A stretch of DNA of 46,717 bases, from the NCBI GenBank assembly GCA_943332855.1, contig CALQRA010000008.1, forward strand, positions 1 to 46,717, read 5' to 3'. Origin of the DNA: Candidatus Kuenenia stuttgartensis. Its GTDB lineage: Bacteria; Planctomycetota; Planctomycetia; Pirellulales; UBA1268. The notes under the pieces are model-generated. The model was not told the origin of the DNA, did no database searches, and saw only the letters and a list, made by a program, of their open reading frames with translations. This document shows, one piece after another, positions 1,457-19,202 of the stretch. A program made the translations under genes and the position numbers. The first letter of the stretch is position 1; each line of letters starts with the position of its first letter.

Positions 1457-1885
1457 CGGTCGATCCTCTCTTCCGTCATCATCTTCAAGGGGCCACGGAT
1501 GCCGCGTAAAAACCTCCCCATGAGCGTAGTTGCCGGGATCGGGAGATCAACCCGCCCTAGCCTGGGGTGGAAAGCCAGATCGCCCGCACCCGTTCCGAGG
1601 GCCCCATGCCGGCGTCGCGGCCACGCGGAATCCGCGGCATAAAGGCCATCTGCGGCGACTCACGCCCATTGGTTGCCCCAAGGGACGATTTTTGCTATCT
1701 AATTTGGATTGGGATAAGTGGCACGGGAACCAATGGCGCTGCGTGAGGGGACGCCCACGTGCTAGGCGGGACATCAGCGCTAGCGGGAGATCCCAGCCGA
1801 TGCGGAACGTGGCTGCCGTCAGGCATCTCCGCCCGGCCATCAAGCGATCGATCGACACAATCAATGAGAGGGGAGCGGTGAAACA
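1457..1885. promoter_or_regulatory. 429-bp divergent intergenic region upstream of the T6SS plus arm
   Basis: No gene is supported here. It must hold the promoters of the TIGR03000 gene (minus) and of the hcp-vgrG arm (plus). The most AT-rich stretch is at about 1688-1718, where TTGCTA (1692-1697) and GATAAG (1713-1718) are separated by 15 bases. That is a weak sigma70-like match with a short spacer. A GAGGGGAG ribosome site precedes the hcp start at 1886. Confidence 0.4.
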
Positions 1886-2377
1886 ATGGCTGGGTTTATG
1901 AAGATTGATAATTTGCCGGGCGATTCGCAAAATGAGACATTTAAGGACTACATCCGCATCGACAGCATGTCGTCGGAGATCACCCGGGAGATCCCTGAAT
2001 CGGCTCGCGGCAACCAGAGGGCAAAAGGACACACGATCCTGAATAACATCAGTGTCTCCAGGCAATTAGACAGGTCCTCGACGGGACTTCAGAAAAAGGT
2101 TGCCATCGGGGAAGTTATTCCTACGGTAATTATTGTTTTTGCAAATATGTACGGTAGTGGTGGCAAATACCAAGCGTACTTGACGTATACGCTCACAAAC
2201 GTCGTGCTGGCATCTTACAGCATCAGTTGCGACGCCGAAGGGGAGGATCTACCCAAGGAAGAGTTGACGCTTTCGTACACGAGAGCGGAATGGAAATACC
2301 AAGACTTCGATGAAAAGGGGAACACAGCATCGATTTATCCGGCTTCATACGACCTCACCACGGACACGGCGACGTGA
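1886..2377 (+). CDS. hcp: T6SS tube protein Hcp (TssD), paralogue 1
   Basis: This 163-residue protein should form the hexameric rings that stack into the inner T6SS tube and is ejected with the spike. It has the Hcp plan: an N-terminal FMKIDNLPGDS strand, a loop and then ISVSRQLDRSSTGL (about 55-68), a central VIPTVIIVF strand, a YQAYLTYTLTNVVLASYSIS hairpin, and a C-terminal LTLSYTRAEWKYQDFDEKG strand pair. The length is normal for Hcp. The ATG at 1886 is preceded by GAGGGGAG. It is the closest of the three paralogues to canonical Hcp, so it is the likely main tube subunit. GC content appears clearly lower than in the flanking genes. Confidence 0.85.
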   Translation: MAGFMKIDNLPGDSQNETFKDYIRIDSMSSEITREIPESARGNQRAKGHTILNNISVSRQLDRSSTGLQKKVAIGEVIPTVIIVFANMYGSGGKYQAYLTYTLTNVVLASYSISCDAEGEDLPKEELTLSYTRAEWKYQDFDEKGNTASIYPASYDLTTDTAT

Positions 2378-2434
2378 TCGAAGGTCGCCTCTTGATCCAC
2401 TTGAGTCTTCTAACCGGTTCTTCGGCACCGTATC

Positions 2435-2472
2435 GGGCGATTCCCGGGGCACGCTTGCCCCGGGAATCGCCC
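2435..2472. promoter_or_regulatory. perfect 16-bp inverted repeat between hcp1 and hcp2
   Basis: GGGCGATTCCCGGGGC (2435-2450) is followed by a 6-base loop and its exact reverse complement (2457-2472). In RNA this gives a 16-bp, very GC-rich hairpin. It lies in the 166-bp spacer between the first two Hcp genes. TTGG rather than a U-tract follows, so it is more likely an attenuator or an mRNA 3'-end stabiliser than a full terminator. Either role would let hcp1 be made in excess over the downstream genes. Confidence 0.75.
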
Positions 2473-2543
2473 TTGGCGATCGAGTCGTGAGTAAATGATC
2501 GCCATGGTCGGCCTGGTCGGCCCGGCTCGGAAGGTAGCGCACG

Positions 2544-3209
2544 ATGCTCTGCTTCGTGAAGTTTGACACATTCCAGGGGAGCTGCGACCACGACAAATAC
2601 GTGGGTTGGTCGACTGTGCACTCGTTTGACTTCTCCGTCGACTACGGATTCGATTCCGACCATGCTAAGGCTAAAACCAAGCTTCTCCGTGAGGCCGCCA
2701 AAACCGCACAGGAGGAGGACTCAAGGGAGGTAACGAATAAGCGCCCCGGCAACAGCGAGTCTTCGGACTCTCAACAAAAACATAAGAAACTGAAAAAACA
2801 ACCAAAATATGACAAGAATCAGGCGCGCGATTTCGCCCATCTGGTGCTGAAGCAACTCAAGCAACCGGAAGGGAAAGAGAGAGCGCAGTCTGTCTCCGTC
2901 GGGCTCAGCAAGGCGCTCGATGCGGTCACGGTCCAATTGCTCAGGCGAGCCTGGAGCCGGAGTGAGCTGTTTAAGACCGTAACACTCGATGTCTGTGGGG
3001 TTGGTGAGAAAGGGCTCGTGAAGGTCGTCACGATCGTGATGAAGGGCGTGAGTGTGCAATCCTGTTCGGTTGACGCCATAGCCTCGTTGGAGAGCGTCAA
3101 CCTGCAATTTCAGTCGATTGTCTTTTCTTATTACCCGGTCGATGCGCAGGGCAAAACGGTATATTCCAGCACCTGCCAAGTGGGTGTGACCAAGTCAAAG
3201 TCAACCTGA
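2544..3209 (+). CDS. Hcp-like protein (TssD paralogue 2) with charged insertion
   Basis: The product has 221 residues. The N-terminus (MLCFVKFDTFQGS...VHSFDFSVDYG) and C-terminal half (about 116-221, with VKVVTIVMKGVSVQSCSVD and VNLQFQSIVFSYYPVDAQGK) fit the Hcp barrel strands. Residues about 41-115 are a Lys/Glu/Ser/Gln-rich insertion predicted to be helical or disordered, where canonical Hcp has a short loop. The start has a GGAAGGT ribosome site. It may cap the tube, form a specialised ring or carry cargo by its insertion. The family assignment rests on strand pattern and neighbourhood. Confidence 0.65.
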   Translation: MLCFVKFDTFQGSCDHDKYVGWSTVHSFDFSVDYGFDSDHAKAKTKLLREAAKTAQEEDSREVTNKRPGNSESSDSQQKHKKLKKQPKYDKNQARDFAHLVLKQLKQPEGKERAQSVSVGLSKALDAVTVQLLRRAWSRSELFKTVTLDVCGVGEKGLVKVVTIVMKGVSVQSCSVDAIASLESVNLQFQSIVFSYYPVDAQGKTVYSSTCQVGVTKSKST

Positions 3210-3237
3210 TGCCGCGGCAGAGTTCGCGGGGGCCATC

Positions 3238-3807
3238 ATGCTCGCCTTCATGCAGATCAACGACAGTAGCAACAGACACATTCCCGGGGAGGCGACTGCC
3301 ACGGGGTACAACGGTTGGTGCGTCGTCGACAGTGTCAGCTATGCTGTGAGCGGAGATGACGGCGATAAGCTCAGCGGCGACGACGAAGTCTTCACGCTCA
3401 GCGTCGAAAAACAAGTCGACAGTGCCACGCATCGCATCATGGAATACGCCCTGACGAAGGCTGACAGCACCGTTGCTCACTTCAAGAGCGTTACCGTGGA
3501 GGTCGTGGGGGTCAATCAGAAGACTTCTGCGGGCAGTAACACCGTGGCGCAGCTCAGGACGGTTATCAAGATCGTGATGACCGATGTGTGGGTGACCAAA
3601 TGGGAGATTGCGGGGGAATCATCGTGGTCGGATGTGGACGATCAAGGGGTGCCCACGGAGTCGATGGATTTTCGTTTTTCCAAGGTCAGTGTTGTGTACA
3701 GTGACATGGTTTACGACCCTTCCGGAGCGGCGCAGTCGAAGGGGGCGTACGTCTTTGAGGCCAATGCCAGCGATCTTTCGGCAAAGTCGTCGTTGTTTAA
3801 GGCATAA
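3238..3807 (+). CDS. Hcp-like protein (TssD paralogue 3)
   Basis: This 189-residue protein shares its layout with the gene before it: MLAFMQINDS start, GWCVVDSVSYAVS strand, FTLSVEKQVDSATHRIMEYAL, SVTVEVVGVNQ, LRTVIKIVMTDVWVTKWEI, and a final MDFRFSKVSVVYSDMVYDPSG hairpin. It contains no large insertion. It lies 28 bp after hcp2 and 27 bp before vgrG, so it is translated in the same transcript. Its position next to VgrG suggests a ring adapted to meet the spike, which is inference. Confidence 0.65.
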   Translation: MLAFMQINDSSNRHIPGEATATGYNGWCVVDSVSYAVSGDDGDKLSGDDEVFTLSVEKQVDSATHRIMEYALTKADSTVAHFKSVTVEVVGVNQKTSAGSNTVAQLRTVIKIVMTDVWVTKWEIAGESSWSDVDDQGVPTESMDFRFSKVSVVYSDMVYDPSGAAQSKGAYVFEANASDLSAKSSLFKA

Positions 3808-3834
3808 GTGTGACAGGCTCCGGAGTCGTGGTCG

Positions 3835-5946
3835 ATGGGGCAGTACACACAGGATAACAAGCCTCTCGGCATCGAGACCCCGCTCGGCAAGGATATCCTG
3901 CTCCTCGAGGCGGTGCGGGGGACCGAAACACTCTCGCGCCCCTTCTCCTTCGAGCTCGACATGGTGTCGGAGGAGGCCTCCATCGACCCGTCGCGGATCG
4001 TGGGGAAGGAGGTGTCGTTTCGGATCAACAATGCCGACAACTCGCCGCGGTGGTTTCACGGCTGGGTGAAGCGACTGATTTTCCTTGGGGCAGGGGAGAA
4101 GCGATTCACCCGCTGGCGTGCGGAAATTGTCCCCGGGCTCTGGTTTCTCACGCTCACCAGCGACTGCCGGATCTGGCAGAGCCAGTCGTATGACCAGATC
4201 GTGGTGTCGCTCCTCCGGGATGACCACCAGAAATATGTCGCTGTCGAGAGTCGCCTCCAGGGGAGCTATGCCAAGCGTGATTACAGCGTGCAATATCGGG
4301 AGACAGACCTCGAGTTCGTCAGTCGCCTCCTCGAGCACGACGGCATCTTTTACTTCTTCAAGCACGCGCAGCAAACGTTGAAGATGACGATTGCCGATTC
4401 CCCTTCGGCTGTCGTTGATTGCGCCGATGCCACGATCGGGCCGGTGGAAGATTCCGACGACGCCCAACATGGCGGATTCTGGCTCACCTGGCACGATGAA
4501 TGGCAGACCCTCTCCGGCAAGGCCACGCAGAGAGATTGGAAGTTCCAGGAGCCTTCCACCGACCTGACTGCCAGCGTGAAGGGGGCCTCCTCCAACGGCT
4601 GGAAGACCGATCTCGAGGTGTTTGACTATCCCGGTGGCTACGAGACCAAGGATCAGGGAGGGGACGCGACCCGACGGTGGATGGAGCGCGAGGAAGTGGC
4701 CGCGCGCACCATCCGCGGGAGCAGCGCCTGCCGGAGTTTCTCTCCCGGCTACACCTTCACGAAAAAGGGGGAGGGCAAATACCTCCTCACGTCGGTGACC
4801 CATGCCGTCGACATCCGCGGGATCTACGAACGCGGTTCGCTCCGAGACGGGGCCAGCTACCGCAACACGTTTACCTGCATCCCGGCGGCTGTTCCCTTTC
4901 ATCCCCCCCGGGCGACACCGAAGCCGGCGCTCCACGGCCCGCAGACCGCGATCGTCGTCGGGACATCGGGCGAGGAGATCGACACTGATCAATATGGCCG
5001 GGTGAAGGTGCAGTTTCCCTGGGATCGGCGCGGGGAGAAGAACGAGAAGAGCTCCTGCTGGGTGCGCGTGGCGCAGCCTGTCGCCGGCAATGGCTGGGGG
5101 GGGCAGTTCATCCCCCGGATCGGGCAGGAGGTGGTGGTTTCTTTTTTGGAAGGGGATCCCGACCAGCCGCTGATCACCGGGGTGGTCTACAACGGGACCA
5201 ACAAGCTCCCCTTCCCTCTCCCCGACAACAAGACGCAAAGTGGCCTGCGGACGCGGAGCAGCAAGGCGGGGGGGGAGACGACCTTCCACGAGCTGCGCTT
5301 CGAGGACAAGAAGGATGCTGAGGAGATCTATTTCCATTCCGAGCGCGATTTCAAGCGGGTGGTCGAAAACAACGACAGCCTCGAGGTCGGGTTTACCAAG
5401 AAGGAAGACGGCAACCGCGACGTGAAAGTGTTTAATGATGCGACCGAGACGATCGGCTGCAGCGACGCCAAGGCGGGAAGCCGGACGGTGACGGTGTGGA
5501 AAAACGACATCACGACGGTGAAGACGGGCGATCAGTCGGTGACCATCGAGAAGGGCAATCAGACGGTGACGGTTGAAAAGGGGGACCAGACGATCTCTGT
5601 CGACACTGGCAACCAGACGGTGAAGATCGGAAAAGGGGATCAGATGATCACGATCTCCTCCGGCAAGCAGGCGGTGACGCTCGGCGGCGGCGATGCTTCG
5701 CTGCGGGTGAAGATGGGGGATCGGACGGTGAATGTCGATCTCGGCAAGTACGATGTCACCGCGATGAAGGAGATTGCCTTCAAAGTGGGGGCAAGCTCGA
5801 TCACGCTCGACCAGACGGGGGTGACCATCAAAGGGATGAACATCAGCATCGAGGGACAGATGAAGACCTCCGTGAAGGGATTGATGACGGAAGTAAAGGC
5901 CTCGGCGACGCTCCAAGCCGGCGGGGCGATCACGATGATCGGATGA
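3835..5946 (+). CDS. vgrG: T6SS spike protein VgrG (TssI)
   Basis: This 703-residue trimeric spike caps the Hcp tube. The N-terminal gp27-like region covers about 1-350. A gp5-type OB fold follows near 380-465, recognisable by DTDQYGRVKVQFPWDRRGE, SSCWVRVAQPVAGNGWGG and IPRIGQEVVVSFLEGDPDQPLITG. Residues about 563-643 are nine nonapeptide repeats with a G-D/N-Q core, expected to form the triple beta-helix needle. The protein ends soon afterwards (QAGGAITMIG) with no effector extension, so it is a structural VgrG. The PAAR gene downstream provides the tip. Confidence 0.95.
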   Translation: MGQYTQDNKPLGIETPLGKDILLLEAVRGTETLSRPFSFELDMVSEEASIDPSRIVGKEVSFRINNADNSPRWFHGWVKRLIFLGAGEKRFTRWRAEIVPGLWFLTLTSDCRIWQSQSYDQIVVSLLRDDHQKYVAVESRLQGSYAKRDYSVQYRETDLEFVSRLLEHDGIFYFFKHAQQTLKMTIADSPSAVVDCADATIGPVEDSDDAQHGGFWLTWHDEWQTLSGKATQRDWKFQEPSTDLTASVKGASSNGWKTDLEVFDYPGGYETKDQGGDATRRWMEREEVAARTIRGSSACRSFSPGYTFTKKGEGKYLLTSVTHAVDIRGIYERGSLRDGASYRNTFTCIPAAVPFHPPRATPKPALHGPQTAIVVGTSGEEIDTDQYGRVKVQFPWDRRGEKNEKSSCWVRVAQPVAGNGWGGQFIPRIGQEVVVSFLEGDPDQPLITGVVYNGTNKLPFPLPDNKTQSGLRTRSSKAGGETTFHELRFEDKKDAEEIYFHSERDFKRVVENNDSLEVGFTKKEDGNRDVKVFNDATETIGCSDAKAGSRTVTVWKNDITTVKTGDQSVTIEKGNQTVTVEKGDQTISVDTGNQTVKIGKGDQMITISSGKQAVTLGGGDASLRVKMGDRTVNVDLGKYDVTAMKEIAFKVGASSITLDQTGVTIKGMNISIEGQMKTSVKGLMTEVKASATLQAGGAITMIG
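5521..5763 (+). repeat. 27-nt coding repeats for the VgrG needle nonapeptides
   Basis: Nine successive units of nine residues occur (KTGDQSVTI, EKGNQTVTV, EKGDQTISV, DTGNQTVKI, GKGDQMITI and so on), with Gly at position 3 of each. The first five are most alike and the last four have diverged. This is the expected signature of a beta-helical spike. Confidence 0.85.
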
Positions 5947-16019: not shown

Positions 16020-17636
16020 TCAGGAGGGAGCGGTCGGTCGCACGACCGTGGTGAGTCGGATCAGCGAGGTGAGATCATCGAGTTGGAAGTGCGGCTGGAT
16101 GTGCATCACGATCCGGTAGGCACCGGGCGAACCGGGCGTGTCCCGGACCTCCACCTGGGCTGCACGGAGCGGGCGGCGAGCCTTCGTTTCCGGGCTGGCG
16201 CGATCGTCCGGCGTGACATACTGGAGAATCCAGTCCTCGAGAATCGACTGGAGTTGATCGGGCTGGGTGACCGACCCGATCTTGGTGCGGGCGATGACCT
16301 TGAGATAATGAGCGAAACGCGACACACAGAGCATGTACTGCAACATCGCCGAGATCGTCGCGTTGGCCGAAGCCCGTGGCGAATCGTACTTTTTGGGGCG
16401 GTGGAGCGACTGATTGGAATGAAACACGGCCTGGCCGGTCGAGCTTGTCGAGCACAACGGGATGAAGCCGGCTTCCGCGATGAAACGCTCCGCCGACTCG
16501 CCGATCACCACCTCGGCAGGGCCCCGGAAGACGAGCCCCTCGCTCGCGGCAAAATGATCGACGGGCAACCCACTGACGAGCCCTCCCCCCTCGGCGTCTC
16601 TGGAAGCTCCACGGATGTCGGCAAACCAGCCTGAACGAGCAAACTCCGCGATCACGACACTGGCAAAAGCCCAACCGGCGTTGATCCAAAGCCGGCGCTC
16701 CCCCCGGGCGCTCTCCGCGTCTTCCTGATAGCGAAACGACCGGGCCCGCCACGAGTGTTCGGCCTGCACCGACCGAGTCCCCGCGATCTCCCAGCCCTCA
16801 TAGGGCAGCCGGCCGAGGATCCTGGGGAAGGCGAGGCCGAGGAATCTCGTTTCCTCGAGCGCTTTCATCGATCTCCAGGCGGTGAATTGCGGCGTGTTGT
16901 AGAGCATCTCGAGCCCCGGGCCGGCATTGAGATCCGCGAAGGAATCAACGCCGAACAGATCGGGGGCCGGTGCCGCCACGAGAGGGGCGAAGCTCGCTGC
17001 CGCCACCTCGGCCAACCCTGTGAGAAGATCGATGTCGTCGGGATGAGCGCCGAACATATGGTCGACGACCAGCAGCCCGAATGGGGCGCCGCCAGCGGTC
17101 CCGAATTCATCCTCGTAGATCTTCCGCCACACCACCGAACGATCAAACTCCACGGCCTGGGTGTGGTCGCGCTGGAGCTCGCGCTTGGAGCAATTGAGCA
17201 ATCGCACCCGGACGGCCTTGGCGGATTTGGAGTGGGCATCGGAGCCGATCGCCTCATCGGCCCGGCCAACGAGCCACTCCAGCCCGCGCCAGGACGATTC
17301 AATCGCCTGGAACTGGGGGTGATGGAGGATGGCGTCGAGCTGCCGCCCAATCACGTCGTCGAGTCTGGCCACGTCGGCCGCCAAGCGATCGGCGAGCTCA
17401 GACCTGGTCAGCCTCTCCCCCGGGCTGACCCGGTACGCGGCCCAATGGCGGAGAAACGCCCCGTCGCTCTCATGCTCCTCCGGGAGCGCGGCGGAGGCCA
17501 CATCGAGTCGGCCCTCGACGCCGTCGGCAAGCATGGCAAAAACAGCGGGCCACACCGCAACAGCCGACGGTTCGTGCTCGACAGTCGACGCTGCGAAAGT
17601 CTCCAGTCTTCTCCCTGGGGAATCGTGGGTCGACAC
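16020..17636 (-). CDS. second TssC-like sheath protein (ImpD/TssC2 type)
   Basis: This 538-residue paralogue of TssC has a longer N-terminus (about 75 extra residues before LADRLAADVARLDDVIGRQLDAILHHPQFQAIESSWRGLEWLV). The TssC signatures are present: FDRSVVWRKIYEDEFGTAGGAPFGLLVVDH, DLLTGLAEVAAASFAPLVAA, AGWAFASVVIAEFARSGWFADIRG, ISAMLQYMLCVSRFAHYLKVIARTKIGS and PGSPGAYRIVMHI. It uses a GTG start at 17636. Dual TssC proteins are known in Agrobacterium, where one copy builds the functional sheath. This copy may be a minor or regulatory sheath subunit. Confidence 0.88.
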   Translation of the reverse strand: MSTHDSPGRRLETFAASTVEHEPSAVAVWPAVFAMLADGVEGRLDVASAALPEEHESDGAFLRHWAAYRVSPGERLTRSELADRLAADVARLDDVIGRQLDAILHHPQFQAIESSWRGLEWLVGRADEAIGSDAHSKSAKAVRVRLLNCSKRELQRDHTQAVEFDRSVVWRKIYEDEFGTAGGAPFGLLVVDHMFGAHPDDIDLLTGLAEVAAASFAPLVAAPAPDLFGVDSFADLNAGPGLEMLYNTPQFTAWRSMKALEETRFLGLAFPRILGRLPYEGWEIAGTRSVQAEHSWRARSFRYQEDAESARGERRLWINAGWAFASVVIAEFARSGWFADIRGASRDAEGGGLVSGLPVDHFAASEGLVFRGPAEVVIGESAERFIAEAGFIPLCSTSSTGQAVFHSNQSLHRPKKYDSPRASANATISAMLQYMLCVSRFAHYLKVIARTKIGSVTQPDQLQSILEDWILQYVTPDDRASPETKARRPLRAAQVEVRDTPGSPGAYRIVMHIQPHFQLDDLTSLIRLTTVVRPTAPS

Positions 17637-17693
17637 AGAATACCCCGTCGGAAGAGCCTCTGGATCATCACGCCGGTCAATGCCCAGACCGCC

Positions 17694-19202
17694 TTACTTA
17701 CCGGCAGCGGCAGGAATCTTCGCCACCAGACGCATCGACGACGTCAGTTCCTCCATCTGCAACCAAGGCCGCAGCCAAGCGACGGCGTTGTAGCTGCCGG
17801 GCGATCCAGGGATCTCCTCGACCTTCACCTTCCCCTCGGCCAAGGGGTAGCGCGCCTTGATCTCGGCGGATGGGTTCGGGCTGCTGACGACGTAGTTGGT
17901 CAGCCAGCCCTGCAGCCACGTCTCGCAATCAGCACGCTGCATGAAAGAGCCGATCTTGTCGCGGGCGATGCACTTGAGATAGTGCGCGATCCGCGCGGTG
18001 GCCATCACGTAGGCCAGCCTCGTCGAGATCGCGGCATTGGCGGTGGCCTCGGGGCGGTCGTATTTCTTTGCCTTTTGGGCCGTTTGGGATCCGAAGAAAA
18101 CGGCGTAGTCGGTATTCTTGAAGTGGCACAGCGGGAGAAAACCGAGCTTCGAAAGCTCCGCCTCGCGACGGTCGGTGATGGCGATCTCCGTCGGGCACTT
18201 CAGATCCTGATCACCGTCGTCGCCGGTGAACACATGCGCCGGCAACCCCTCGACCTTCCCGCCGTTCTCCACGCCACGAATCGACGTGCACCAGCCAGTC
18301 TGGGCGAAGGAGTCGGTGAGCCGCGAGCCGAAGACGTAGGCTGTATTCATCCAGCAATAATTGGAGTGATCGACTTTGATCGATTCCCCGTGCTGTCCGA
18401 GGGCCACTTCCTCGTACTGGAACTCTTCCACCGGCTTTGTCGATTGTCCGTAGGGAAGACGGGCCAGGGTGCGGGGCATGGTGAGAACGACGAACCGGGA
18501 GTCTTCCGAATCGCGGAAACTGCGCCATTTGGCGTAGCTCGTGTCGAGGAAGATCTTCTCGAGGTCGCGGGGCTTGGAAAGCTCATCGAAGCTGTCCATG
18601 CCGAGCAGTTCGGGGCCGGCGGCGGTGACAAAAGGGCAGAAGCCAGCGGCACTGACCTGCGACATCTTTGTGAGGAGGTCGATGTCTTCCGGGTGGTTGG
18701 TGAACTGGTAGTCGCCGATGAGGGCACCGTAGGGCTCGCCACCGGGGGAGCCAAACTCGGCCTCGTAAACCTTCTTGAAGAGCTGGCTCTGGTCAAACTC
18801 GACCGCCTTGTCGAGATCCTTGAAGACCTCTCGCTTCGTGGCGTTCATGACGCGGATCTTGAGGGACGCGCCGGTCTCGCTGCTCATCACGAGATGCTGG
18901 AGCCCACGCCACGACCCTTCCAAAGCCTGAAAGCTCGGGTGGTGCATGATCGCGGCGAGTTGCTGCGACATCGCCGCATCGATCTGGGCGATGGCCGCGG
19001 TGACGGTCTTGGTGACGTTCTTGTCGAACTTCATCGTCCCCTGAACGGCATGCTCCACCAAGGCGTGGATCAGCTCGTCACGGCGCGGCTTTTCCACCGC
19101 GCGGGGCATCTGGCTGGTGATCTGGTCGAGGAGGCTGCCCTTCGAAGCCTCGGCATGGCTCGCAACATCCGCAGAAGCGTGGTCTTTCTTGGCAGGTGAC
19201 AT
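17694..19202 (-). CDS. tssC: T6SS contractile sheath large subunit TssC (VipB/EvpB)
   Basis: This 502-residue sheath protein has canonical motifs: [136 protein letters not shown] and [30 protein letters not shown]. Length and motifs fit the major TssC. Its ATG lies three bases after the tssB stop, and its ribosome site AAGGAGTG is inside the end of tssB, giving tight coupling of the two sheath subunits. Confidence 0.96.

Follow-up and report, generated by a model that had tools for sequence, protein, structure and literature searches.

How can one operon supply a T6SS with far more Hcp than VgrG? The copy numbers of T6SS subunits are unequal, with Hcp present at hundreds of copies per tube. 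The question arises for the stretch of DNA analysed here, a 46.7-kb contig (G000:C8; hereafter the window) of a 4.9-Mb planctomycete assembly, where a hairpin divides a canonical hcp1 gene from the divergent hcp2 and hcp3 genes and vgrG. A hairpin that is fixed in place as its sequence drifts would be a simple answer to the need for excess Hcp. We give a probability of roughly 0.57 to the reading that this hairpin is a 3′-protective element, which would keep the hcp1 message stable as the downstream message decays faster.

Gene organization and hairpin structure

On the + strand of the window, hcp1 (1886–2377) encodes a canonical Hcp tube protein of 163 aa (PF05638, E 3.6e-26). It matches Hcp proteins of solved structure over nearly its whole length, best of all 5xeu (E 3.4e-14). 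The next gene, hcp2 (2544–3209, +), encodes a divergent Hcp-family protein of 221 aa, which matches PF05638 over residues 106–196 (E 5.8e-12) and has no relative among solved structures at E up to 1. It is followed by hcp3 (3238–3807, +), for a third Hcp-family protein of 189 aa (PF05638, E 3e-12), and by vgrG (3835–5946, +), for a spike protein of 703 aa (PF05954, E 3.7e-78; PF04717; PF22178). The hcp2–hcp3 and hcp3–vgrG gaps are 28 and 27 nt, respectively. Together, hcp1 and the 2544–3807 region make up three tandem Hcp-family genes, of which only hcp1 is canonical, and the hcp2 product has a long charged insertion. Read from the sequence, GGAAGG at 2529–2534 (+) resembles a Shine-Dalgarno element and is the putative one of hcp2. 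Other T6SS genes lie on the − strand and encode a ClpV-like AAA protein, TssG, TssF, two TssC proteins, and TssB; further − strand genes encode an ImpA-like protein, DotU, TssK, and others. At the start of the window, positions 1–423 hold a short tandem repeat encoding Asp-Ser-Asp-Asp runs, and the protein encoded there, which also has Lys/Ala-rich stretches, seems to enter from before the window start.

The hcp1–hcp2 spacer (2378–2543, 166 nt) contains the hairpin at 2435–2472 (+). Its arms, 2435–2451 and 2456–2472 (GGGCGATTCCCGGGGCA/TGCCCCGGGAATCGCCC in genome G000), are 100% complementary and form a perfect 17-bp stem closed by the 4-nt loop CGCT, 57 nt from the hcp1 stop and 71 nt from the hcp2 ATG, with both genes on the same strand. 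The bases just 3′ of the stem are TTGGCGATCG, and the hairpin therefore lacks a U-tract. A terminator scan at the hairpin found no terminator-like site, and of the features of a Rho-independent terminator the GC-rich stem is present and the U-tract absent, so the hairpin is not classed as one. A preliminary description had correctly placed a perfect hairpin without a U-tract at 2435–2472 in this spacer, as the following bases and the scan agree, but its stem of 16 bp and loop of six bases become 17 bp and 4 nt.

The spacer folds with an energy of −79.9 kcal/mol (z −4.0), whereas its dinucleotide shuffles average −63.8 and 0/200 of them fold as low; the 38-nt hairpin core folded alone gave −38.2. 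In the predicted fold, a second, weaker hairpin (2474–2504, +), with 9-bp arms at 2474–2482 and 2496–2504 and a long loop, adjoins the first at its 3′ side. A search of 1800–3900 with the Rfam covariance models, down to hits of E 1, found none. No strong hairpin was found after hcp2, hcp3, or vgrG, and none was found before hcp1, where a 5′ hairpin has been proposed in Yersinia. The main hairpin is real as a structure and its position is confirmed.

Rarity of the hairpin in its own genome

Perfect stems with loops of 3–10 nt were surveyed in 1,237,486 bases, comprising the window and 60 other stretches and amounting to 25% of the 4.91-Mb genome. The hairpin has the longest perfect stem in these 1.24 Mb, and no other perfect 17-bp stem was found in the surveyed 25%. 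Folding energy sets it apart less: of 4,659 same-strand windows, 30 are at least as stable as the hairpin, some of them in GC-rich genes, and three coding-region structures of the 46.7-kb contig fold more strongly. The same genome also has canonical terminator-like sites, such as a 16-bp stem followed by T7 on the − strand (L048, 3447–3483).

The preliminary description, which proposed that the hairpin blocks 3′ exonucleases or pauses polymerase, had named occurrence at many unrelated sites as an argument against itself. Sites resembling an arm, with up to 3 mismatches, number 88 genome-wide, compared to 20 for a reversed control pattern, an excess that probably reflects codon usage. The hairpin arms are the only inverted pair among these sites in the whole assembly. 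The arm is not dispersed, and the proposal stands on this point. A dispersed (REP-like) palindromic repeat was rejected as an identity for the hairpin, on the grounds of this single inverted pair and the lack of another perfect 17-bp stem in the surveyed 25%.

Place and pairing of the hairpin in relatives

Relatives of Hcp1 were gathered from 17/59 genomes of the order, 19/72 of the family, and 75/296 of the order. Eleven other members of the genus (12 genomes) had no match to the window at the hairpin; only three genus matches to the spacer were found, all weak and confined to 2500–2536. We therefore compared structure, not sequence. Twelve spacers of tandem hcp pairs, 11 from the window's family (its own, G000, among them) and one from another family, were inspected one by one, and a GC-rich stem-loop is present between hcp1 and hcp2 in all 12. 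The stem is CCGCGTTTCATC in G033 and G063, CCGCTGCTCCGAG in G019, CCGCCCCGGA in G094, and GGGCGGCCG in G042, and the stems of G060, G061, G034, G072, G068, and G009 are variants of GGCCGTCGCCCC. Between genera the arms differ in sequence and length and the loops in size, with perfect stems as short as about 9–13 bp. The shuffle z is −2.5 or lower in 11/12 of these spacers, −4.7 at the extreme, and −1.6 in G009. That differing sequences form a stem-loop in every spacer inspected argues that place and pairing are kept while sequence drifts.

The sole clade with alignable spacers provides six sequences, in which 96% of cells pair, compared to 29–52% for slid partners. Columns are invariant at 26/34 stem positions and 25/68 of the rest (p 3e-4), and 3/17 pairs are broken in some member. 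Between G033 and G063, one stem position changes from A to G with a U-G pair kept. Compensatory changes in relatives, which the preliminary description had offered as a check, did not appear: the six sequences have no double (both-side) compensations and do not exceed the shuffle control. Alignment of spacers across genera leaves 4 invariant columns of 244 and is meaningless. The case for a conserved structure is therefore that unrelated sequences fold alike at the same position.

Ranked hairpins after hcp genes

For each hcp gene, the strongest simple hairpin in the 130 nt that follow the stop was ranked against other windows of the same locus. From 131 hcp hits, 106 were used (25 that were fused, fragmentary, weak, or unfetched being omitted) and 105 were scored, as one lacked room. 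The window's own hcp1 is labelled 'single' in the ranking, family, and U-run counts because its hcp2 is absent from the hits.

Multiple counts bear on the association of the hairpin with hcp. First, within the window's family, a top-5% hairpin follows the first hcp in 15/15 other tandem pairs and the last hcp in 0/15 (Fisher p 1.3e-8, a value that overstates the contrast because the rows are related genomes). Two of these loci, G028 (L064) and G074 (L131), have identical hairpin stretches, which reduces the 15 to no more than 14 distinct cases; this identity, despite different genera, suggests recent transfer or a mis-binned contig. Second, by position among all scored hits, top-5% hairpins follow 17/22 first hcp genes (18/23 with the window), 1/1 middle genes, 3/22 last genes, and 43/60 lone genes (42/59 without the window). 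Third, among same-strand spacers of 40–300 nt in the order, a strong hairpin is present after 20/30 hcp genes and 6/84 other genes (Fisher 4e-10, which ignores kinship); G094 is scored as a miss here, owing to an upstream start picked in gene calling. Finally, a U-run follows 2/17 first-hcp hairpins, leaving 15/17 without one, compared to 26/43 lone-hcp hairpins, a split that is expected if lone hairpins end transcripts and tandem ones protect the upstream message within a longer transcript. In two members of the family, G012 and G059, the stem is followed by T5, as in a terminator.

Outside the window's family the first-hcp rule is weaker. Hairpins after the first hcp rank within the top 5% in 2/7 cases (G042 and G270), G196 and G050 narrowly miss that limit, and in the tandem pairs of G118, G102, and G048 the first hcp has no strong hairpin behind it; in G048 one stands after the middle hcp. 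Among 27 further planctomycete loci (30 less two repeats of earlier hits and one that was too short), hcp is followed by a top-5% hairpin in 16, two of them with a T-run. Of 34 named loci, 33 could be scored, one having a frame problem; hcp hairpins rank at or under 5% in 13/33, five with a T-run, and several are planctomycete. The same-strand test on named loci, many of them non-planctomycete, gave 2/7 vs 2/32, which is not significant, and this result and the 13/33 fall short of generality beyond Planctomycetota.

A candidate route to excess Hcp1 and its alternatives

The recurrence of the hairpin with differing sequences suggests that the hcp1 message may outlive the rest of the operon message. 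A long transcript would be cut, or would end, at some point beyond the hairpin; PNPase or another 3′ exonuclease would degrade back and halt at the 17-bp stem; a stable hcp1 message would be left as the downstream portion decays faster; and Hcp1 output would exceed that of Hcp2, Hcp3, and VgrG. We infer co-transcription, cleavage, exonuclease arrest, and the step in abundance from the layout of the locus and its relatives. PNPase, Rho, and RNase E/G are all encoded in the genome. The 28- and 27-nt gaps in the window, and the little space between hairpin and hcp2 in relatives, suggest a single polycistronic transcript: in several relatives only about 15–40 nt separate the hairpin end from the hcp2 start, a gap in which hcp2 could hardly have a promoter of its own, and hcp2 is therefore probably read through from hcp1. 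Of the two actions in the preliminary description, exonuclease blocking is well supported by the comparison, namely the 15/15 and 0/15 of the family, the usual lack of a U-run, and the precedent of Yersinia hcp4, and polymerase pausing has less support.

Pausing or partial stopping of polymerase would make the hairpin a U-less intrinsic terminator or attenuator, affecting synthesis of the message, not its decay. Position and strength fit this alternative equally, and it can point to the T5 behind the stems of G012 and G059 and to the many lone-hcp hairpins that are canonical U-tract terminators. We regard it as a possible but clearly less probable account, given that the U-run is absent in the window and in 15/17 first-hcp hairpins, that the terminator scan was blank, and that, in Yersinia, mutation of the hcp4 stem gave no rise in downstream transcripts (PMC12503267). 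Processing by RNase III, in which the 17-bp duplex would be cut and the transcript halves would decay at different rates, is unlikely, even though such a site might well look like this one, whose duplex is long and perfect, whose loop is small, and which has a weaker second hairpin behind it. The perfect stems of relatives go down to about 9–13 bp, which is short for RNase III, and a stem that had been cut would lose its 3′ protection. A role in DNA, as the operator of a dimeric regulator of hcp2–vgrG or as a recombination or cruciform site, would explain perfect dyad symmetry upstream of hcp2; this is improbable for an element whose arms and loop vary among genera, unlike those of an operator, which has no second genomic copy, and whose position follows that of the hcp1 stop. 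The least credible origin is chance or neutral drift into an inverted repeat, because, although some coding stretches of this GC-rich contig are equally stable by folding energy, three order-3 Markov copies of the 1.24 Mb contained no stem above 15 bp and all 15 family relatives with tandem hcp genes have a hairpin at the same place.

Comparison with known systems

Protection of the hcp1 message by a 3′ hairpin would have counterparts elsewhere. In the puf operon of Rhodobacter capsulatus, an intercistronic hairpin with an abundantly expressed gene before it and a sparsely expressed one after it is reportedly an mRNA decay terminator, shown by experiment. The puf operon is a photosynthesis operon, and the likeness to the window lies in a hairpin between abundant and scarce genes. 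In Yersinia pseudotuberculosis T6SS4, a recent study reports that mutation of a stem downstream of hcp4 lowered hcp4 mRNA alone, which its authors read as 3′ protection, not termination (PMC12503267; PLoS Pathog 2025). Common to that case and the window is a GC-rich stem-loop directly 3′ of hcp within a T6SS operon, with 3′ protection as the proposed source of abundant hcp mRNA. In Yersinia, tssE4 comes next and a second loop is proposed upstream of hcp4 (PMC12503267), whereas in the planctomycete window, known from sequence alone, hcp2–hcp3–vgrG come next and no strong hairpin precedes hcp1.

The SRPS described in Clostridium offer a general frame for such hairpins (PMC4423207, PMC8219983). 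In C. cellulolyticum, 28/33 SRPS stem-loops lack a U-run (PMC4423207). The window resembles these cases in that a stem-loop, in most cases without a U-run, lies between genes and closes the message of an abundant subunit, in an operon for a protein complex of unequal stoichiometry. As in the SRPS type, a stable stem-loop without a U-run stands at the 3′ end of the upstream gene, the next gene is on the same strand, and, by Pfam assignment, hcp1–hcp2–hcp3–vgrG encode a complex of unequal subunit numbers. Processing sites and transcript ratios are mapped in Clostridium, whereas the planctomycete locus is read from its DNA and differs in complex and phylum. Hairpins between unequally expressed genes of ABC transporter operons in cellulolytic Clostridia are described as termination (PMC9045158).

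A literature search found one tested account of RNA structure setting the Hcp:VgrG ratio and no work on T6SS gene expression in Planctomycetota. The titles and opening abstract lines of openly licensed papers mention no such hairpins in planctomycetes or behind tssC, which is weak evidence. The type of control is already known; the setting is new and the comparative signature unusually clean. Protection of the hcp1 message would also allow prediction from sequence of which hcp of a tandem pair encodes the bulk subunit.

Hairpins after the sheath gene tssC

Strong hairpins were present in six control spacers, several of which follow genes of about 490–513 aa. In a dedicated search, a top-5% hairpin follows tssC, the sheath gene, in 13/30 loci and tssK in 4/30 (p 0.02), and 11/13 of the tssC hairpins lack a T-run. 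When spacers of at least 40 nt are compared, the contrast shrinks to 12/25 for tssC and 3/16 for tssK (p 0.10, counts by eye); part of the original difference comes from the frequent overlap of tssK with its neighbour. Such a hairpin is absent behind the window's own tssC; in relatives that have one, it is as if the sheath message were protected like that of hcp. A tentative extension, which we consider doubtful, is a lineage-wide RNA stoichiometry code for the T6SS of Planctomycetota, with hairpins lacking a U-run retained, their sequences drifting freely, behind the genes for the polymeric parts Hcp and TssC and not behind those for low-copy parts; if true, mRNA decay would set tube and sheath against spike and baseplate, and the loop at Yersinia hcp4 would show that a second phylum had reached this arrangement independently. 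Relatives of the order with a tssC hairpin include L317, L324, L328, L329, and L308. In the window, the two TssC-family genes adjoin one another at 16020–19202 (−) and both match PF05943, a pairing seen in many genomes of the order.
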